A stretch of 64,000 nt of DNA from Chelativorans xinjiangensis (lineage in GTDB: Bacteria > Pseudomonadota > Alphaproteobacteria > Rhizobiales > Rhizobiaceae): contig NZ_WQNH01000001.1 in NCBI RefSeq assembly GCF_009812055.1, positions 124,001 through 188,000 on the forward strand, in the 5' to 3' direction. The position numbers were made by a program, and so were the translations under genes. Shown here one piece after another: positions 1 to 16,032 of the stretch (positions are counted from its first letter, which is position 1; every line of letters begins with the position of its first letter). The notes below the pieces were generated by a model that was not told the origin of the DNA, did no database searches, and saw only the letters and a list, made by a program, of their open reading frames with translations.

Positions 1-1564
1 GCAGTGCGATCATGGTGAAGAGGCGGTCGAGCAGCTTTTCCGTGCGCTCCCTGAGCGCGCCGTCCGCCCAGTGCTGCAGCGCCAGAAGCCCGATGAAGTC
101 GATCGGGTAATAGGCCGCCGAGTTCCACTCGGCGAGGCCATGCGCCTCGACCGAGCAGAACCATTTGCCCAGCCGCTCCGCCGCCAGCGCCGCCTGCTCG
201 CGGCCGGTGCGTCCGGAGGCGGTGAAGGTGTCGTCGGGAAAGAGGCGGCCGGCGAGATATTGCGAGACGTGAAAGCACAGGACGTGGTTTTCGCTCCAGA
301 ACCACATGACGTCGTTGCCCGGCTCGTCGACCCAGTAGCGGTAGTCGAGCACGGAGCGGCGGATGCGCGCGGCCGCCGCCGCCGGCAGGGCCTCTTTATA
401 GGTGCCGTAGAGCCATAGCAGCGGCACCATTACGAAGTCGGAGCAGTCGCGCCGCTCGTCGATCATCGTCAGCGTGTCGGTGAGGATGGCCTCGAGCGTA
501 TCGTCGGCGTTGCCGCCCGCCGCCAGCATGGCGAGCGCCCGGCCGATCCTGAGATCGCCGTGGGCGGCAGCGAAAGCCAGCGCCTCGCGCTTGCGGCCTT
601 GCAGATCGGCGGCACGCGCTGGCGGCACCGTCTCGCGCAGGAGCGCGAAGCCGACATGCCGTTCCACCCGCGCCTCGCCGATCTCGAAGGTGAGGTCGAG
701 CGGATGGTAGCCGTCCGCAAGCCCTTCCAGCCCGGCGAGCGCCACGTGGGTACCGCCCGCGTCCAGCACCGCCTCGGCGGTGAAGAGCGGCGGCTTGTGG
801 CGCATATGGACGCTCTGCTGGACCTTGGCCGTCACCGTCACATCGCTTGCTGCCGGCGTGTCGAAGGCAAGGACGAGCGGACCGCCGGTGAAGAACTCGC
901 GCTCGGGGCGGACATCGGCCGCAAGCCGCATCAGCGTCGCCAGGTCAGCGGCATTTGCCCCGCCGGGCACGCCGGCCTGAAGCGTCTCGTCGCAGAGCGA
1001 GGTCAGCTCGACGTACCAGTTGGTGTCGCGCTCGGCGAGGTCCTCCGACAGCATGACGACCTCGCTGCCGCCGGAGTTGAGCGGCAGGGCGATCTCTGTC
1101 GCTTGCTCCTCGTTTCGGGTGAAGGGTTCGAACCTGACCGCGAGCGCGCCGTCCACCCAGATGTGAACGCCGCCGCAGGTGGCGAGCCGGAAGCGGCAGT
1201 CGCCGCCCTCGGGCGGCACGAGGGCGGTGCGGCACCAGCGCCCGAGCCGCGTCGGGCGGTGCCAGAAACCGGAGAACTCCAGCCGCCGGTTGAAACCGGG
1301 CAGGTTGACGGTATCGACGGGCCAATCCGTCTCAAGCTCCACCTTGCGGGTTTTGACCTCCGCCCACCAGGCGACCCGGCAAGGCAGATCGCCCACGTCC
1401 ACGAAACCGTTGATGAAGCGGTAATTGGCGCGGTCTTCGGCGGGCGCCGGCTTGCCGGGATAATAGGCGGTGTCGGGCGGCGACAACGCCCAGGCGGTCA
1501 CCGTCTCGCCGGGCCCGACCGGGAAGAACGCCATGCCCTCGTTGCCCTTCGCAAGCGCGCTCAT
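1..1564 (-). CDS. Large unrecognised protein, C-terminus beyond window edge
   Basis: An open frame runs without a stop from ATG at 1564 to the left edge (521 codons visible), so the gene is cut by the window. The start overlaps the stop of the HAD gene upstream (ATGA), which implies translational coupling at the end of the transporter operon. I do not recognise a named family. The first ~250 residues look beta-rich and include a segment reading GVHIWVDGALAVRFEPF, typical of jelly-roll carbohydrate-binding or galactose-binding-like folds. From about residue 330 onward it is helical and aromatic-rich (for example NDVMWFWSENHVLCFH), resembling alpha/alpha-toroid glycan-processing enzymes. No signal peptide is visible, so it is probably cytosolic. 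With an alpha-mannosidase and a sugar-type regulator in the same locus, a role in glycan breakdown is plausible but unproven. Confidence 0.8.
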   Translation of the reverse strand, partial: MSALAKGNEGMAFFPVGPGETVTAWALSPPDTAYYPGKPAPAEDRANYRFINGFVDVGDLPCRVAWWAEVKTRKVELETDWPVDTVNLPGFNRRLEFSGFWHRPTRLGRWCRTALVPPEGGDCRFRLATCGGVHIWVDGALAVRFEPFTRNEEQATEIALPLNSGGSEVVMLSEDLAERDTNWYVELTSLCDETLQAGVPGGANAADLATLMRLAADVRPEREFFTGGPLVLAFDTPAASDVTVTAKVQQSVHMRHKPPLFTAEAVLDAGGTHVALAGLEGLADGYHPLDLTFEIGEARVERHVGFALLRETVPPARAADLQGRKREALAFAAAHGDLRIGRALAMLAAGGNADDTLEAILTDTLTMIDERRDCSDFVMVPLLWLYGTYKEALPAAAAARIRRSVLDYRYWVDEPGNDVMWFWSENHVLCFHVSQYLAGRLFPDDTFTASGRTGREQAALAAERLGKWFCSVEAHGLAEWNSAAYYPIDFIGLLALQHWADGALRERTEKLLDRLFTMIAL

Positions 1565-3276
1565 GCTTCGGCTCCGGCAGTCTCACGGTGTTCCCTCACG
1601 TTCTGTTGCTGCATCGCCGCCTCGATCTCGTGAAGCAGCGGGAGAACGTCCGACGGTGTAAAGACCGAATAGTCGGGCCGTTCGCTGTCGTCGGCGGGCT
1701 CGTGCGTGCGCCGGCGCGACCAGCCGAAGAAGATGCTGGGAATGCCGAAGGCGTTGGCGCCCTTGATGTCGCGGGAGAGATTGTTGCCGATCATCACGGT
1801 CGAGCGGGCCTCGGACCCCCGCAAACCGAGCCGCTCCAAGGCGGCCGCGAACATCTTCGGCGAAGGTTTCAGCGCGCCGACTTCCCCGGAAATGATGCGC
1901 GCCTGGAAGAGGTCCCAGAGGCCGGCCGGTTTCAGGATGTTCTCGAAGGTTTCGCGCGGGCCGTCGGCCACGAGCGCCAGGCGGTAGCCGGCCGCAGCGA
2001 TATGGCGCACCATGTCCGCCGCACCCGGGATCAGCTCGGCGCGCACCACCACCTCGCTGCCCGGCAGCTTCTCTTCCGTCGCCTCGTCGGCGATCGTGTC
2101 GCCGCAATCGAACAGAACGGCGCGGATGTGGGGAACCGTACTTGGCAGCTCCTCTATGAGCTTACGGACGCGCGCCGGAATCCAGGCCTCAAGAATTGGC
2201 CAGGGTACCAGGGCGATCCCTCGGCCACCGTCGGGGTTATCGGATATGCCGGTGCCGTTCCCCCGCGGCATCGCGGCCGGTGTTTCCTCTCCCTCGCTTT
2301 CGGGCAGGGCTATCGAATATAGGTCATCTTTTCCGGCTTTGCCGGAACCCCCACCCCTCACCCCTCCCCTCAAGGGGGAGGGGGGCGCCGACGCCTCAGA
2401 ATCCCCCTCCCCCTTGAGGGGAAGGGTGAGGGGTGGGGGTGCCATCAAGGACTCAGAACCCATATGCGATGGATAGTCGAATTCGAACGTCGGCTCGAAG
2501 GCATCCGCCTTCATCTTGAGCTTCGCCAGCCTGTGATCGAAGGCCGTGGGCGCGATCCTTCCGCTCTCCGCGAAGACATTGCCGAGGTGCACGCCCTCCC
2601 ATGCCGCCAGTTCGTTGCACAACACGGAGATGAGCCGGCCGGCCTTCTCCTCCATCTCGGCGGGGTCGGCCCAATGGGCGTGCTTGCCGGCCTCTACATA
2701 GAGCACGGGGCGGGGCCCAAGCATCCGGCAAAGCCTGCCGTCGGCTGCAAGCCGATTGCGTATTGATTTTGAGTCCTTGCTTGTACCCCCACCCCTCACC
2801 CCTCCCCTCAAGGGGGAGGGGGGCGCCGACGCCTCAGAATCCCCCTCCCCCTTGTGGGGAGGGGTGAGGGGTGGGGGTTCCGGCGAAGCCGGCAAGAGCG
2901 ACTCGTTTGCGATAGCCCCGCCTTCGGCCGTCATCGCAAGACGCCTTCCGTGCCGGGAGGCTTCTACCCTTTCGACTTTGCCGGTTCCATCGAGATAGAC
3001 CCACACATGTTCCAGATCGTACATATGCCCGATGTCCCAGTCGTACCAGACCGCGTACTCGATCACGGCACCGCCAAGCGGCCTCACCTGGAATTTCGAG
3101 GACGGCGACTGACCAGGCTCCCGGAAAACCGTGTAGCCCATCGCAAGCGGCGGATAGGGCTCGTGGGCATCCAGCATCAGAAGAGGCATATGGGCGCGCG
3201 CCAGAGCGTAATCGGCGCCGGCCGCACCCCGCCGTAGTTTTTCCAGCGTACCGCTCACCCTATCATTTTGGCTCAT
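1561..3276 (-). CDS. HAD-family hydrolase carrying two in-frame palindromic repeat insertions
   Basis: 571 aa. The C-terminal ~190 residues form a HAD hydrolase: motif I reads LFDCGDT, motif II falls around LALVADG, the lysine motif is [10 protein letters not shown], and motif IV is [13 protein letters not shown]. Motif I has Gly where classical DxDxT enzymes have the second Asp; the DxGDT form is common in the superfamily. The N-terminal ~120 residues and a middle block (~175-269) form an unrecognised domain. These parts are separated by two Pro/Gly-rich stretches (residues ~122-174 and ~270-322) that are exact translations of 156-bp palindromic repeats, so the family's usual length is probably near 465 aa. 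The start overlaps the stop of the upstream ATPase gene (ATGA). The substrate is unknown; sugar-phosphate dephosphorylation would suit the locus. Confidence 0.85.
2314..2469. repeat. 156-bp palindromic element, copy A, in frame inside HAD gene
   Basis: A GC-rich core (ACCCCCACCCC... and its inverted complement GGGGTGGGGGT) is flanked by arms ending near CGAATATAGG on the left and CCATATGCGA on the right. The length is 156 bp, or 52 codons. It lies inside a coding region and adds residues ~270-322 without a stop or frameshift. The arms are inverted relative to copies B and C. Confidence 0.85.
2757..2912. repeat. 156-bp palindromic element, copy B, in frame inside HAD gene
   Basis: Same family as the copy at 2314-2469. 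The left arm reads TTTTGAGTCCTTGC and the right arm CCGGCGAAGCCGGCAA. It contributes residues ~122-174, including [12 protein letters not shown] and [11 protein letters not shown]. Two copies in one open reading frame, each a multiple of three, keep the HAD domain downstream readable. Confidence 0.85.
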
Positions 3277-4310
3277 GCTTCCACCCCGGCCAGATCGAGC
3301 TCCTCGGCGCGGTGGCAGCGCACCTCACGGCCACCGAGGGGACGCAGATCCGGAACCTCTTTCTTGCAGAGATCGGTCGCATAGGGACAGCGCGGATGGA
3401 AGGCACAGCCGGCGGGCGGGTTGGCCAGATCGGCGATCTCGCCCTTCAGGACGATGCGCCGGCCGCTGGCACGGCGGCGCGGATCGGGCTGCGGCACCGC
3501 CGAGAGAAGCGCCTCGGTGTAGGGGTGCAGCGGCTTCTTGAAGATCTCCGCCGTATCGCCCAATTCGACCATGCGCCCCACATACATCACGCCGATACGG
3601 TCGGAGATGTGCTCCACCATGCCGAGATCGTGCGTGATGAAGAGGTAGGTGAGGCCGAACTTTTCCTGCAGGTCCTGCAGGAGGTTGATGTTCTGCGCGG
3701 CGACGGAGACATCGAGGGCGGAGACCGCTTCGTCGGCGGCGATGAAGCTCGGATTGAGCGCCAGCGCCCGGGCGATGCCGATGCGCTGGCGCTGCCCCCC
3801 GGAAAAGGCGTGCGGATAGCGGGTCGCGTATTCAGGCCTCAGACCCACCAGCCCCAGAAGCTCGCCCACGCGATCGCCGATCTCGCCCCTGGAGCCGACG
3901 CCGTGGATCACCAAAGGCTCGCCGACGATGTCGAGCAGCGTCATGCGTGGATCGAGCGAGGAATATGGGTCCTGGAAGATCATCTGCATCTCGCGCCGGA
4001 TGGGGCGCAGCTCGCGGTCGGAAAGGTCCGTCAGGTCGGTGACGCTGCCGTCGGCGCGGCGGAATTTGATGGAGCCGCCGGTGAGCATGTAGGCGCGCAG
4101 GATCAGCCGGGCGACCGTGGATTTGCCCGAGCCGCTCTCGCCCACCAGGCCGAACGTCTCGCCGCGCCTGATGTCGAAGCTGATGTCGTCGACGGCCTTG
4201 ACCTCGCCGACCTTCCTTTGCAGCCAGCCGCGTGTGACGGGGAAGTATTTCTTCAGGCTTGAGACCGAGATCAGCGCGTCCTCGGGCATGGCGTTCGTTG
4301 TCCCGGTCAC
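3273..4310 (-). CDS. ABC transporter ATP-binding protein, oligopeptide/dipeptide type (DppF-like)
   Basis: 345 aa from GTG at 4310, chosen because GGAGG lies just upstream and the start overlaps the previous stop (GTGA). Walker A is GESGSGKST, the signature is FSGGQRQR, Walker B/D-loop is [11 protein letters not shown], and the switch is FITHDLG. The C-terminus has the Cys-containing oligopeptide-transporter tail ([15 protein letters not shown]) followed by a basic end. It is the second of two ATPases that would pair as a heterodimer with the DppB/DppC-type permeases of this operon. Substrate specificity lies in the binding protein at 8024-9928; despite the family name, such systems in rhizobia often import oligosaccharides. 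Confidence 0.93.
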
Positions 4311-5344
4311 AGCACTTCCTCCGGCAATTTTCCGGCGAGGTGGCAGCGCGCCGACTGGTCGCCCGGAAAAAGGCTCACCTCCGGGACGAGCGTGTCGCAG
4401 CGGCCGGGGACCGCATAGGCACAGCGCGGATGAAAGGCGCAGCCGGCCGGCGCGTTGAAGGGATCGGGCACCATGCCCGGTATGGTTTTCAAGCGCCGCA
4501 CCGGCGCCTGCCCGAGCCGCGGGATCGATTGCAGCAATGCCCGCGTGTAGGGATGCTTCGGCTTGTAGAAGATGTCGTCGACGCTGCCGGTTTCGGCGAT
4601 GCGGCCCAGATACATCACCGCGACCCGGTCGGCGATATCCGCCACCACGCCGAAATTGTGCGTGATGAAGACGATGGCCATTCCCATCTCCGCCTGGAGC
4701 GATTTGAGAAGCTCCAAGATCTGGGCCTCCGTCGTCACGTCCAGCGCTGTCGTCGGCTCGTCGGCGATGAGAAGCGCCGGGTCGCAGGAGAGCGCCAGGG
4801 CGATCATCGCCCGCTGGCGCATGCCGCCGGAGAGCTGGTGCGGATAGCGCTCGATCATCTCCGTCGGCTTCGGCAACTGCACCTTCTCCAGAAGCTCGAT
4901 GGCGCGGGCGCGCGCCGCCTCCTTGCCGACGCGCCGGTGCAGCATGACCGTGCGCATGATCTGCGTGCCGATCGAGTGGACGGGCGAAAGCGCCGTCATC
5001 GGCTCCTGGAAGATCATGCCGATATGCCCGCCGCGCAATTCGCGCACCTGGCGGCCGTCGCGCGGCAGGCTGGAGATCTCGACCTCCTTGCCCGGCTCGG
5101 GACGGAAGCGGATGCGCCCGCCCGCTTCTATGGCGTTCTTGGACAGAAGGCGCATGATGGCGCGGGCGGTGACCGACTTGCCGGAGCCCGACTCGCCGAC
5201 GATGCCCAGAACCTTGCCACGGTCGACGTGGTAGGAGACGCCGTTGACGGCCCGGACGAGCCCCTCGCGCATGGAGAAGTGCACATGCACGTCGTCCAGT
5301 TCCAGCAAGCGCTCGGGCGGCATGGGGGTGGTGTTGACGCTCAC
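4307..5344 (-). CDS. ABC transporter ATP-binding protein, oligopeptide/dipeptide type (DppD-like)
   Basis: 345 aa. GTG at 5344 is preferred: GGAGG sits 6 nt upstream, and the alternative ATG at 5368 would draw its first codons from the end of the palindromic element at 5363-5518. Walker A is GESGSGKSV, the signature is LSGGMRQR, Walker B is [11 protein letters not shown], and the switch is FITHNFG. The C-terminal oligopeptide-transporter Cys motif is [16 protein letters not shown]. It forms the ATPase pair with the gene at 3273-4310. A repeat of about 156 bp separates it from the permease genes upstream but no terminator-like T-run is seen, so the operon probably continues. Confidence 0.93.
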
Positions 5345-5362
5345 TGTTTGCCTCCGCGCCAA

Positions 5363-5518
5363 TCGCATATGGATTCTGAGTCTTTGATCGGACCCCCACC
5401 CCTTACCCCTCCCCCCAAGGGGGAGGGGGATTCTGAGAGGTCGGCGCCCCCCTCCCCCTTGAGGGGAGGGGTGAGGGGTGGGGGTTCCGGCGAAGCCAGC
5501 AAAAATAGTTCATAGGCA
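5363..5518. repeat. 156-bp palindromic element, copy C, between permease and ATPase genes
   Basis: Starts TCGCATATGG and ends near CATAGGC, with the same C-rich/G-rich palindromic core as copies A, B and D. The asymmetric centre (GATTCTGAGAGGTCGGCGC) is inverted relative to the other three copies. It fills most of the 198-bp gap between the permease stop (5543) and the ATPase start (5344). Confidence 0.85.
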
Positions 5519-5542
5519 AAAGCGCTTTCCATACGATTCCCC

Positions 5543-6679
5543 TCACCGGCCATAGGGATCGGCGGCATCGCGCAGGCCGTCGCCCATGAAGTTGAAGGCG
5601 AGCACCACCAGGACCACCGCGGCACCCGGCGCGAGCAGCCAGGGGGCGAGCGAGATGGTGCGCAGGTTCTGCGCCTCCTGCAAAAGCACGCCCCAGCTCA
5701 CCACCGGCGGCCTCAACCCCAGGCCGAGGAAAGAGAGAGCCGTTTCGCCGAGGATCATCTCAGGCACGGCGAGCGTCATGGCGGCGATGATGTAGCTCGT
5801 CATGGCGGGCAGCATATGCTTGGTGATAACGCGGTACTCGGAGGCGCCGGCGAGCCTTGCCGCCAGAACGTAGTCCTCCGTCTTCAGCGAAAAGAAGCGG
5901 CCGCGCACGACGCGGGCCAGGTGCGTCCAGCCGATCAGCGACAGGATGATGGTGATCAGCACGTAGACGAAGAGCGGGTCCCAGGCGATGGGGAGTGCCG
6001 CCGCGAGGCCCATCCACAACGGGATCGTGGGGATCGAGCGGATGAACTCCATCAGGCGCTGGATCCCTGCGTCGAGCCAGCCGCCGTAGTAGCCGGACAC
6101 GGCACCGAGCGCGAGGCCGAGCACGAAGGAAAAGGCGACGCCGACAAGGCCCGCCGAAAGCGTGACCCGCGCCCCGTAGAGGAGACGGGTGAAGAGGTCG
6201 CGGCCGAGCGAATCCGTACCGAGAAGGTTGATCCTCTGCCGCCGGTGATCGACCCCGAACAGATGCAGGTCCGTCGGCACGAGGCCCAGGAACCTGTAGG
6301 GCTCGCCGCGGACGAAGAGGCGGACCGGCAGGATCTCCTCGCGATCCGCCTCGTAGGTGACGCGTGCCGTCTCCGGATCGCGCGTGCGCTTGAGCGCGTA
6401 GACGAACGGCCCCTTGAACGCGCCCTCATGGAAGAGATGGACCGCGCGCGGCGGCGAGAACGTGTTGAGCCGATCGATGGAAGACGGCGTATAGGGCGAG
6501 ACGAAATCGGCGAAGATCGCCGCCACGCACAAAAGCACCAGGAAGACCAGCGAGGCGACGGCCAGCCGGTGCTGCCGGAACCGCCACCAGATCAGCGTCC
6601 AGGGTTTTGCGGTATAAAGCTGCTCCTCGCGGCCGGGTGCCGCTTCGGTTACGGGAGCTTCCAGTGTCTCGATTGCCAT
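5543..6679 (-). CDS. ABC transporter permease, DppC/OppC type
   Basis: 378 aa from ATG at 6679, 11 nt after the preceding permease stop. An N-terminal membrane segment (LAVASLVFLVLLCVAAIFAD) is followed by a ~100-residue periplasmic insertion that is longer than in standard DppC. Next come the conserved NLLGTDSLGRDLFTRLLYG start of the permease domain and several membrane helices. The EAA loop is at AARLAGASEYRVITKHMLP, where ATPases dock. The extended periplasmic loop fits the large binding protein of this operon. It acts in the inner membrane with the DppB-type permease next to it. Confidence 0.93.
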   Translation of the reverse strand: MAIETLEAPVTEAAPGREEQLYTAKPWTLIWWRFRQHRLAVASLVFLVLLCVAAIFADFVSPYTPSSIDRLNTFSPPRAVHLFHEGAFKGPFVYALKRTRDPETARVTYEADREEILPVRLFVRGEPYRFLGLVPTDLHLFGVDHRRQRINLLGTDSLGRDLFTRLLYGARVTLSAGLVGVAFSFVLGLALGAVSGYYGGWLDAGIQRLMEFIRSIPTIPLWMGLAAALPIAWDPLFVYVLITIILSLIGWTHLARVVRGRFFSLKTEDYVLAARLAGASEYRVITKHMLPAMTSYIIAAMTLAVPEMILGETALSFLGLGLRPPVVSWGVLLQEAQNLRTISLAPWLLAPGAAVVLVVLAFNFMGDGLRDAADPYGR

Positions 6680-12747: not shown

Positions 12748-12779
12748 GGCTATCCTCTCCCCAGTCGAGCCAGGGTCAA

Positions 12780-12935
12780 CGCATATGAGTTATTTTTGCC
12801 GGCTTCGCCGGGACCCCCACCCCTCACCCCTCCCCTCAAGGGGGAGGGGGGCGCCGACGCCTCAGAATCCCCCTCCCCCTTGAGGGCAGGGGTGAGGGGT
12901 GGGGGTCCGAGCAAGAAATCACAATCCATATGCGA
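12780..12935. repeat. 156-bp palindromic element, copy D, overlapping the 3' end of the mannosidase gene
   Basis: Begins CGCATATGAG and ends CCATATGCGA, giving near-perfect terminal inverted repeats, with the same core as the copies at 2314, 2757 and 5363. Its right end supplies the last codons and TGA stop of the alpha-mannosidase gene (AIAYGL then stop), so the element lies across a gene end. Confidence 0.85.
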
Positions 12936-15900
12936 TTGCCCTCCCCAGCCGGATGGTGCGGATCTGAAACGGTGCGAAGTCGAGCCTTACCTTGCCGTCG
13001 GTCACGGGAAGCGCTTCGGGGGAGCGCTCCAGAAGATCGACCTCGACCGCCTCGGCAAAACCATCCGGAAGGATGAGCGCGGCTTCCGCTCTGCGCCCAT
13101 GCGTCTCCCACAGGCGGAGGACGATCCCCTCGCTTTCCTCCGCCTTCTTCACGCTCTCGACGGTGACGCCTTCCCCCTCCACCTCGAGGAGCGAGGTGGA
13201 GGCGCCCGCCGCGCCTTCACCGCCTTCCAGCAGCCGGAGCGGCATGTTGAAGGCCTCGGCTGCCGCCGGCACGCCCTCGCCCGCAAAGGTGCCGTGATGG
13301 ACGAGAATGCCGTAGCGGAAACGGTGCTCGCCCTGGTCCGCTTCCGCCCAGGGCCAAGTCGGGGAGCGCAGGAGGGTGAGCCTGAGCGTCGTGCCTTTCG
13401 CGTCGTAGCCGTATTTGCAGTCGTTCAGGAGGGCGGCGCCGAAATCGGGCTCCGAGACATCCAGCCAGCGGTGCATGGCGCATTCGAACCGCGCCGTATC
13501 CCACGACGTGTTGCGATGGGTCGGCCGCCGCACATGGCCGAACTGGATCTCGGCATTGACCGCGTCCGCGCGGATGTCGAGAGGAAATGCCGCTTTCACC
13601 AGCGTATGCTGCTCGTGCCAGTCGACGAAGGTGTCGAAATCGAGCCGGGCCGACCCGGCTTCCAGCGCCACCACCTGGACGATGCGCGAGCGCTCGTAGC
13701 GCCATTCGAAGCGGATGGCGGCGCGATAGGGGCCGGTCTCGACCACCTTTGCCGAGACGAGATCGTCGATCTCCCACGCCTGGTCCTCGAAATCAGGATC
13801 GATCTCCCAGGCGTCGAAGGCAACCGGCATGTCGCGGAAGGCCTGCAGCCGGTTTGCGCACACGCCAGGCTTCAGGACCTCGCGCCCGTTGCGCTTGTCG
13901 CGGATCGAGACGATGCGCCCCTTCTCGTCGAAGGCTACCGTGAGAACCGCGTTCTCGATATGGCGCTCCGATACCGATAGGTCGCCCGACCCTTCGGCCG
14001 GCGCGCCGTCCTCCACCCGCACGATGCGCGTTGCCAGCGCCGGCACGGCGGCGATGGGCGCGACCTGCTCCAGCGCGCCGTCCGCCCGGTGCACGCTTTG
14101 CGTTGGCAGTCTTTTGCCGCCGTCGACGACCGTCTTCGCCCCGGCGCCCGGCAGCGCGGCGAGCCCGCCGCGCGGCCGGCCGAGGGCGTTGAACAGGAGA
14201 TGTTCCCCCTTCCCCGCCAGCACACCCGCGAGTTCCGCCGTCAGCGCCGCCGCCTCCTCGAAGAAGGCCGCATAATCGCGGTCGCTGTCCTCGTAGACGC
14301 CGCCGATGGAGGAGCCGGGCAGGATGTCGTGGAACTGGTTGAGAAGCACGATGCGCCAGAGCCGGTGCAGGCGTTCGGACGGATAGGGATGGGCGCGCGA
14401 GAGATTGGCGAGCACCGCCAGCGCCTCGATCTCCCTCAGCGCGATCTCGGCCAGGCGGTTGTTGCGCTTGTTCTTGGCGACCGAGGTCAGCGTGCCGCGG
14501 TGGTATTCGAGGTAGAGTTCGCCGACCCAGGTGGGGAAGCGCTCGGGCTCGGCCGCCATCCTCTCCAGAAGCCGCTCGAAGAAGGGGCGCATCGCCTCGT
14601 GCCGCACCTTCGGGCAGCCGGGAATGCCGCGCTCCATGCGCCTGACGTTTTCCAGCATCTCGCGCGTCGGCCCGCCGCCGCCGTCGCCGTGGCCATAGAC
14701 GAGGAAGATTTCCTCGTTCGCCGCCTGCTGCCCGTAGCGCCGCCACGCCCCCATCACATGGCTTGGCTTCAGGTCCGGATTGTAGGTCGTGCCGATGCTC
14801 TTGGCGTCGTAGGGCTGGGTGGTGAGGAAATAGGCCGCGACGCTCGTGCCGTCGATGCCCTGCCAGTGGAAGGTGTCGTAGGGCATGCGGTTGGTGTCGT
14901 TCCACGACAGCTTGTGCGTGACGAACACGTCGAGCCCGGAAAGGCGCATGAGCTGCGGCAGGGCCGCCGTATAGCCGAAGGTGTCGGGCAGCCAGACGAT
15001 GCGCGGGCGCACCCCGAACTTTTCTTCGTGATAGCGCACCCCGTGCAGGATGTGCCGCACGAAGGATTCGCCGCCGGTGATGTTGGCATCCGGCTCCAGC
15101 CACAAGGCGCCTTCGATCTCGAACCGGCCTTCACAAACGCGCTCGGCAAGGCGTGCGAAGAGCTCGGGATAATCCTCCTCCAGCCAGTCGAGGAGGACGC
15201 CCTGATTATACATGAAGCGGTAGTCGGGATACTCCTCCATCAGGCGGAGTGCCGTCGCCATGGAGCGCGCCATCTTGCGCCGCGTGGCGGCCAGCCGCCA
15301 GAGCCAGGCGACGTCGATATGGGTGTGGCCGGTGGCGACGACGGTGGGCTTCTTCTCGAAATCCGCCGCCTCGTAGATGCGCGCGGCGATGGCCTCGGCC
15401 GCCACAAGGCTCGCCGTGAAGCGTGCGGCATCGCCCGGCCGGAAGTCGATCGCTGCGAGCGCGGCGTCGACGCCATTGAGGATGAGATGCCGCCGGGCGT
15501 CGTCCTCCGCCAGATGCCGCGCCACGTCCACAGGCACGCGCAGATCGTAGTAGACCTTCTGCGCAACGGCATCGTGCACGAGGAGCGCGACTGACAGGCC
15601 GAGCAGGCGCCGATCCTCGATCGTCTCCGCCTCGATGACGATCTCGAAGCGCTCGCCGGCGACGGCGTTTTCGGTCAGAAGCACCTCGCGGTGGTTGCCG
15701 TCCACCCCTTGGGCGATGCGGTCGCCGATCCAGACGAGGCATTGCGGGTCGGAGCGCCCCATCGGGCGCCCGAACTCGGCCTCGACACCCAGGAAGACCC
15801 TGCGCCCCGCCGCAGTCGCGGGAATCTCCACTGTACCGGCAAACTGGAAGCGCCTCTCCGGGCCGCCCCAGACGAGATCGTCCCGCATCTCCAGCCAGCC

Positions 15901-16032
15901 GTTTCCTGGCGCGGCGGCGTTCCCGCCATCGGACACTTGTCGGAACCGCAACGGCACGTCGGCATCGAGCGGTTGAAAAATCCGCTCGCGGAGCGCTCCA
16001 AGGAGATGATCTATCTTGGTGATACGGTGCAT
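12919..16032 (-). CDS. Alpha-mannosidase, glycoside hydrolase family 38
   Basis: 1037 aa, the usual length for bacterial GH38. An N-terminal beta domain of ~225 residues is followed by the catalytic domain with zinc ligands in GHTHIDVAWLW (H238, D240). The nucleophile is probably Asp350 in VWLPDTFGYTAALPQLM. Large beta domains fill the C-terminal half. GH38 enzymes are retaining, zinc-dependent exo-alpha-mannosidases. No signal peptide is present, so it probably trims mannosides imported by the ABC system to free mannose in the cytosol. The last six codons and the stop come from the palindromic element at 12780-12935, meaning the original C-terminus has been replaced. Confidence 0.93.
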   Translation of the reverse strand: MHRITKIDHLLGALRERIFQPLDADVPLRFRQVSDGGNAAAPGNGWLEMRDDLVWGGPERRFQFAGTVEIPATAAGRRVFLGVEAEFGRPMGRSDPQCLVWIGDRIAQGVDGNHREVLLTENAVAGERFEIVIEAETIEDRRLLGLSVALLVHDAVAQKVYYDLRVPVDVARHLAEDDARRHLILNGVDAALAAIDFRPGDAARFTASLVAAEAIAARIYEAADFEKKPTVVATGHTHIDVAWLWRLAATRRKMARSMATALRLMEEYPDYRFMYNQGVLLDWLEEDYPELFARLAERVCEGRFEIEGALWLEPDANITGGESFVRHILHGVRYHEEKFGVRPRIVWLPDTFGYTAALPQLMRLSGLDVFVTHKLSWNDTNRMPYDTFHWQGIDGTSVAAYFLTTQPYDAKSIGTTYNPDLKPSHVMGAWRRYGQQAANEEIFLVYGHGDGGGGPTREMLENVRRMERGIPGCPKVRHEAMRPFFERLLERMAAEPERFPTWVGELYLEYHRGTLTSVAKNKRNNRLAEIALREIEALAVLANLSRAHPYPSERLHRLWRIVLLNQFHDILPGSSIGGVYEDSDRDYAAFFEEAAALTAELAGVLAGKGEHLLFNALGRPRGGLAALPGAGAKTVVDGGKRLPTQSVHRADGALEQVAPIAAVPALATRIVRVEDGAPAEGSGDLSVSERHIENAVLTVAFDEKGRIVSIRDKRNGREVLKPGVCANRLQAFRDMPVAFDAWEIDPDFEDQAWEIDDLVSAKVVETGPYRAAIRFEWRYERSRIVQVVALEAGSARLDFDTFVDWHEQHTLVKAAFPLDIRADAVNAEIQFGHVRRPTHRNTSWDTARFECAMHRWLDVSEPDFGAALLNDCKYGYDAKGTTLRLTLLRSPTWPWAEADQGEHRFRYGILVHHGTFAGEGVPAAAEAFNMPLRLLEGGEGAAGASTSLLEVEGEGVTVESVKKAEESEGIVLRLWETHGRRAEAALILPDGFAEAVEVDLLERSPEALPVTDGKVRLDFAPFQIRTIRLGRAIAYGL

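Follow-up and report, generated by a model that had tools for sequence, protein, structure and literature searches.

Among the repeats of rhizobial genomes, those named RIME (Rhizobium-specific intergenic mosaic elements) are palindromic mosaics. They are called intergenic in the portion of the report used here (PMC2573895). Rickettsia palindromic elements (RPEs) are, as presented in parts of two reports, short palindromic repeats that carry an open frame and lie in frame within conserved protein genes (PMC10969869, PMC2229807). An excerpt of the second report gives their length as 105–146 bp and marks their target duplication with a question mark (PMC2229807). According to the same excerpt, the 107-bp form of Correia/NEMIS and intragenic ERIC are likewise repeats resembling miniature inverted-repeat transposable elements (MITEs), with open frames that are fused in frame to genes (PMC2229807). 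According to the relevant portion of the first report, it is not unusual for intragenic MITEs to form fusions that keep the frame, and the frequency is unusually high in Rickettsia (PMC10969869). Here, we describe a palindromic, MITE-like element that occurs twice, in frame, within a HAD-family hydrolase gene of Chelativorans xinjiangensis. The gene lies in a window of 64,000 nucleotides (the whole stretch of DNA analyzed; positions 124,001 to 188,000 of NZ_WQNH01000001.1, contig C1), which is part of a 5.69-Mb draft genome, hereafter the home genome (G000).

The initial annotation, made from the window alone, had likened the element to RPEs. The analogy held: the element lies in frame twice in the HAD gene, and also in the gene for pyruvate dehydrogenase E2, in a nitrate-reductase-like gene and in an open reading frame (ORF) of the sister species (G001). 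The likeness, which we drew by description only, is that of a palindromic repeat in frame within conserved protein genes. The element differs in its length of 173 or 176 bp, its 10-bp target duplication and its candidate parent insertion sequence (IS), whereas RPEs measure 105–146 bp and the excerpt describing them names no mobilizing enzyme (PMC2229807). Correia/NEMIS and ERIC have, in that excerpt, TA termini and belong to Neisseria and enterobacteria (PMC2229807), whereas the ends found here are ISAs1-like. RIME and the element, also compared by description only, are both repeats of rhizobial genomes, RIME being those called intergenic in the part of the report used (PMC2573895). A literature search that reached few subscription journals found no published intragenic palindromic repeat for Mesorhizobium and, judged by abstracts, no such palindromes for Chelativorans. 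What is added to the known systems is a case related to the rhizobia with empty sites, a 10-bp target duplication and a candidate parent transposase.

Two insertions in a HAD hydrolase gene

We compared the HAD gene with its counterparts in genomes of the same genus (G001 and G006) and in G041, which represents another family of the order. Throughout, "family" denotes the GTDB family; NCBI places the species of G001 in Phyllobacteriaceae. Element boundaries were taken as the C...G of the end motif CAGGGCTATCGCATATG. The features of the locus are listed below, with the strand where one was assigned.

1561–3276, minus strand: host ORF, a 571-aa HAD-family hydrolase whose N-terminal region has no Pfam match; carries both elements
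2748–2920: element 1, 173 bp; 17-bp ends with 6 and 3 mismatches; the more 5′ of the two within the ORF; open in the RAIAYES...PPPLTPP frame, which is the one used
2738–2747: left copy of the element 1 target duplication, CCGTCGGCTG; the empty site in G001 is CCGTCGGCCG
2921–2930: right copy of the element 1 target duplication, CCTTCGGCCG; compared with the same empty site
2305–2477: element 2, 173 bp; ends with 2 and 6 mismatches; opposite in orientation to element 1; read in the ...PPPLTPP frame
2295–2304: position expected for the element 2 target duplication, CGCTTTCGGG; the other side does not clearly match
2478–2487: the other position expected for the element 2 target duplication, CGAATTCGAA; decayed or lost
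1744–2052, minus strand: HAD hydrolase Pfam match PF00702, residues 409–511, E 5.2e-17; in frame after both inserts
2095–2112, minus strand: HAD motif FDCGDT, residues 389–394

As first proposed, two copies of a palindromic repeat lie within this single ORF, both in frame, and the HAD domain remains in frame after them. The two elements are in opposite orientations and use two different open frames. Both are N-terminal of FDCGDT, which we take to be the region of HAD motif I, and both are outside the HAD domain. The element had initially been measured as 156 bp (52 codons) and the inserted residues placed at ~122–174 and ~270–322; each copy is 173 bp end to end, and the inserted residues of the 571-aa protein are about 117–178 and 267–327. 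Elements 1 and 2 differ from the 173-bp consensus at 27 and 16 of the 173 sites, respectively. Their predicted RNA folding energies are −116.8 and −123.5 kcal/mol (z = −9.7 and −10.5; 200 dinucleotide shuffles each). An Rfam search over window positions 1500–6000 returned 47 matches at E ≤ 1, mostly to microRNA precursor families, none of which reached the gathering score.

Alignment with homologues bore out the suggestion that the repeats had been inserted. The orthologues of G001 and G006, at 1299 bp each versus 1716 bp in the home genome, lack both inserts, and the G001 gene shares 93–98% DNA identity with the home copy in the aligned blocks. The G041 homologue aligned as 21–122, 186–278 and 354–557, skipping most of both insert regions. 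At exactly 183 bp (61 codons), insert 1 corresponds to the 173-bp element plus a 10-bp target duplication: CCGTCGGCCG, which is single in the G001 empty site, flanks element 1 on both sides with one base changed per copy. At insert 2, the home gene exceeds the empty site by 234 bp (78 codons); set against 173 + 10 bp, about 51 bp of this difference is therefore neither element nor duplication. Judged from these alignments, both HAD inserts are true insertions.

The element family and its candidate parent

The HAD elements belong to a MITE-like family with ends CAGGGCTATCGCATATG, 10-bp target duplications and main forms of 173 or 176 bp. In the home genome, 87 matches to the element query were merged by hand into at least about 40 places, including the two HAD copies; this count is a lower bound, as 40 of 111 first-look candidates were scored. 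At ≤2 mismatches, the end motif occurred at 59 sites in the home genome (IS ends included), 30 in G001 and 9 in G006, and reversed-pattern controls gave 1, 2 and 1. Pairing the ends yielded 55 copies in the fetched stretches (29 home, 20 G001 and 6 G006, orthologues counted), of which some of the longest and most decayed may be mispaired. Among the 42 of these 55 copies with ≤4 mismatches per end, the identity of the 10-bp flanks was 0.63 versus 0.43 for mismatched pairs, and the flanks of 11 copies matched at ≥9 of 10 positions versus 0.6 expected from mismatched pairs. Ten base pairs alone stood out among duplication lengths of 6 to 13 bp. The duplicated target is hairpin-like, CCC(N4)GGG, its three outer pairs being all complementary in 21% of flanks versus 2% of random sites.

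Insertion sites also differed between relatives. Five were occupied in the home genome only (two in the HAD gene, two in L062 and one in L077) and three in G001 only, the home genome holding another repeat at two of the latter. Overall, the family has the features of a MITE: it is short and transposase-free, with terminal inverted repeats, a target duplication of fixed length, ends in common with an autonomous element and insertion polymorphism between relatives. A search of plasmids with the element query gave no match, for which the low-complexity filter may be responsible.

The autonomous element in question is an ISAs1-family IS at locus L109 of the home genome. It has ends CAGGGCTATCGCATATGAGT and CAGGGGAATCGCATATCAGT and a length of 1281 bp, or 1370 bp counting a repeated end. 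Its transposase matched NF033564 (ISAs1) with 280 bits, the cut-off being 70, and also PF13808 and PF01609. The element is identical to the left end of the IS over 20 bp, and an imperfect copy of this stretch is present at the right end of the IS. From this common end we infer that the element may be mobilized in trans, with the IS as the candidate source of the transposase. The element itself differs from the IS in having no transposase gene and in its size of 173 bp.

The home genome holds one assembled copy of the ISAs1 IS and nine contig-end fragments: contigs C29, C43, C56, C59, C80, C101, C104, C105 and C106 each end about 25 codons into an IS beginning CAGGGCTATCGCATATGAGT. Because the draft assembly breaks at these copies, the counts of both IS and elements are lower bounds. 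At L109:1–2700, one stretch within the assembled IS is repeated, as is its right end, and the sequences on either side of the IS are inverted copies of each other. Elements of 71 bp with the same ends and no core, probably the simplest MITE form, were observed at L106:2412–2482 and L108:2508–2578.

The center of the element is a 94-bp palindrome (query positions 45–138). With the whole element as query and at most five candidates scored per genome, 64 of 151 genomes of the family had a match at E ≤ 0.001. Outside the genus, most of the matches listed include the 94-bp core, complete or partial. At the 29 loci inspected, the core lies mostly between unrelated flanks; an end-like motif (≤2 mismatches) was found beside it at two of the 29, L145 from the same genus and L143 from another, and the reversed control gave none. 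The motif at L143 indicates that the composite is not strictly limited to the genus. At this locus (G072, near 1470–1500), it adjoins the core with 2 mismatches, and the composite may predate the genus. By its make-up, the element seems to be an ISAs1 MITE into which a family-wide palindrome was incorporated.

Reading frames and coding hosts

In the 173-bp consensus, built from 13 copies, two of the six frames are stop-free, one on each strand, which agrees with an early observation that the element is open in several frames. The first open frame is the one read in HAD insert 1 and E2; the second is read in HAD insert 2, the nitrate-reductase-like gene and the G001 ORF. Insertion by a multiple of three, also proposed at the outset, applies once the 10-bp target duplication is included: 173 + 10 and 176 + 10 give 183 and 186 bp, so that insertion into a gene keeps the frame. 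With two of the six combinations of phase and orientation stop-free, about one genic hit in three would be expected to give a longer uninterrupted protein.

By contrast, the initial annotation's further claim, that the element favors coding targets, was not supported. Forty-nine of the 55 end-paired copies lie outside ORFs predicted by the gene caller, a crude codon-usage score, and six lie within one (in one case as a C-terminal tail); one of the 49 provides a gene with its stop codon. The targets are hairpin-like, and neither lengths, frames nor codon phase point to a coding preference, as set out in the next paragraph. No evident split gene was found among the 49 copies by the codon-usage caller, with no homology check of each.

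These data bear on the proposal that the element was selected for translatability, its length, two open frames and peptide being maintained for the use of coding targets, which we consider highly improbable. The sum of length and 10 is divisible by three in 33 of the 55 end-paired copies (binomial p 5e-5 if the copies are independent), but only 10 of 27 distinct lengths keep the frame (p 0.41), so the excess reflects amplified subtypes. Element length was accordingly rejected as a sign of coding selection, the distinct lengths keeping frame at about the chance rate. When the same sequence was shuffled, 57% of the mirrored and 40% of the plain versions had at least two open frames; a pair of them is thus nothing unusual in a GC-rich palindrome. 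Wobble positions are common to both open frames of the element, and this phase was the most variable across all 13 copies of 173 bp (88/62/56; chi-square about 8.4, nominally significant). Without the four G001 orthologues of home copies, the nine remaining gave 53/46/37 (chi-square about 2.8, not significant), and a codon-phase bias was rejected because its significance vanished. Eight copies of 176 bp (100/101/64) mix two subtypes and orientations and were left out of this comparison. Moreover, divergence is no slower in genic than in intergenic copies, as described below. The in-frame copies are best read as survivors.

Besides the HAD gene, the in-frame hosts are the E2 linker, the nitrate-reductase-like gene and a neighboring ORF that carries the element in G001 only. 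The E2 of G001 (440 aa) retains all three of its domains, lipoyl, E3-binding and catalytic, and the element separates the lipoyl from the E3-binding domain; the home copy is cut by a contig end and is open as far as the sequence runs. The comparison of E2 proteins leaves out row L182. The nitrate-reductase-like protein (990 and 1004 codons stop to stop), presumably of this type given its PF00384 and PF01568 domains, has the element between these two domains. The element occupies residues 579–633 of the G001 protein and is nested in a second palindrome family, which surrounds it. Ten relatives from the genus align in two blocks that skip at least residues 574–623, and G008 has the second palindrome alone at this linker. 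The G001 copies in E2 and in the nitrate-reductase-like gene are excluded from the 55 as their ends are unpaired. In the G001 ORF (901 codons, no Pfam match), the element is in frame with both 17-bp ends perfect and with flanks CCTTTCCGCC/CCTCTCCGCC; the insertion is absent from the home genome and G006.

The observations on the second palindrome family, CTCTGCCCTGCCGGGCATCTCCCCC..., come from L076 at about 4000–4300, L098 at about 3950–4300 and the linkers of L201 and L181, and a similar repeat-like peptide lies in the E2 linker of G006. Locus L072:3190–4416 carries a binding-protein-like ORF with a long, repeat-derived C-terminal tail, which has four bases in common with the start of the following ORF. 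This ORF (408 aa) was rejected as an internal insertion, six relatives aligning only to residues 285–321; it is counted among the six ORFs that span a copy and is not one of the clean cases. Further copies in the window, each common to G001, are as follows.

5355–5527: copy between two oligopeptide ABC-transporter genes
12771–12943: copy at the 3′ end of ORF 12919–15936 (minus strand), supplying its last residues and stop codon

The protein of ORF 12919–15936 is presumably mannosidase-like. An opposite-strand ORF running through 12771–12943 (827 codons stop to stop) was rejected as antisense to the gene whose stop codon the element supplies.

Proposed mobilization and the fate of genic copies

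We consider it probable, at roughly 0.8, that both HAD inserts are explained by a non-autonomous, MITE-like element that is moved in trans by an ISAs1-type transposase, the in-frame copies being survivors. The element would be a composite of ISAs1-family IS ends around a palindrome that is widespread in the GTDB family. The transposase would insert it at short, GC-rich palindromic targets and leave a 10-bp duplication. Genic hits in the remaining combinations of phase and orientation would truncate the gene and would mostly be removed by selection. Both survivors fall within the N-terminal half of the HAD gene, a region in which a translated Pro/Gly-rich segment of ~61 residues is presumably tolerated.

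Several observations weigh against this explanation. An ISAs1 transposase was found in the home genome only, and in none of the 10 other genus members or the six more distant genomes searched. G001, in which none was detected, has 30 end motifs and at least three insertions absent from the home genome, so the mobilizing enzyme there is missing, lost or different. In the HAD gene, no clear target duplication could be discerned around element 2, where a further ~51 bp distinguishes the sequence from the empty site. E2 offers no clean empty site: the G006 linker has a different peptide, repeat-like in the manner of the second palindrome family, and the remaining E2 rows represent copies that are more distant. 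On the branch leading to the home HAD gene, 29 silent and 27 replacement changes were counted; the G001 branch had 22 and 14. The excess of replacements is slight and non-significant (Fisher p 0.40). Finally, orthologous elements within genes diverge by 0.055 (E2) and 0.081 (nitrate-reductase-like gene) per site, at least as fast as at seven intergenic sites (0.000–0.062); the slice ends were set by eye, and some end gaps in the genic pairs stem from slicing. Since genic divergence is no lower than intergenic, no constraint on the peptide is visible. As far as these comparisons reach, the frame is kept and the peptide is not visibly conserved.

The distribution of the transposase raises the question of whether something other than ISAs1 moved the element, the shared ends having arisen through capture of element ends by the IS or through convergence. 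The movement of elements in G001, where no ISAs1 transposase was found, is in keeping with such a mover, as is the occurrence of the core without these ends at most of the examined loci in other genera. We nevertheless regard it as quite unlikely. The element matches the IS left end over 20 bp and has an imperfect counterpart at the right end, and the 71-bp elements, which have no core, bear the same ends. In addition, the target duplication is sharply 10 bp, and ISAs1 target duplications are 8–10 bp.

The changes in the HAD gene itself bear on a different reading, in which the gene is an incipient pseudogene: dispensable, open in frame by luck and giving no functional protein. The two large hairpins (−116.8 and −123.5 kcal/mol) within one coding region would suit such a gene, as would the slightly greater share of replacement changes on its own branch, but the difference between branches is not significant. 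According to a pairwise comparison with G001 over 432 codons, which averages both branches, dN is 0.052 and dS 0.221, for a dN/dS of about 0.24. The ORF has stayed open through both inserts despite their 27 and 16 departures from the consensus, and a like insertion in the G001 E2 gene left every domain present. An incipient pseudogene is therefore unlikely, and mobilization in trans followed by survival of in-frame copies remains our preferred explanation of the inserts.

A broader idea, and a doubtful one, is that in Chelativorans the composite element acts as a linker donor, Pro/Gly-rich segments of ~61 residues being dropped repeatedly into interdomain linkers and loops of core enzymes. If so, the length and composition of linkers would evolve by transposition, and the E2 and nitrate-reductase linkers, with different palindrome-derived peptides per species, would be hot spots.

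Palindromes within coding sequence, best known from Rickettsia, occur here in a member of a different order for which sister genomes provide the empty sites. The natural occurrence of extended and insert-free versions of one protein makes both the route of entry and the cost of the peptide testable at the bench.

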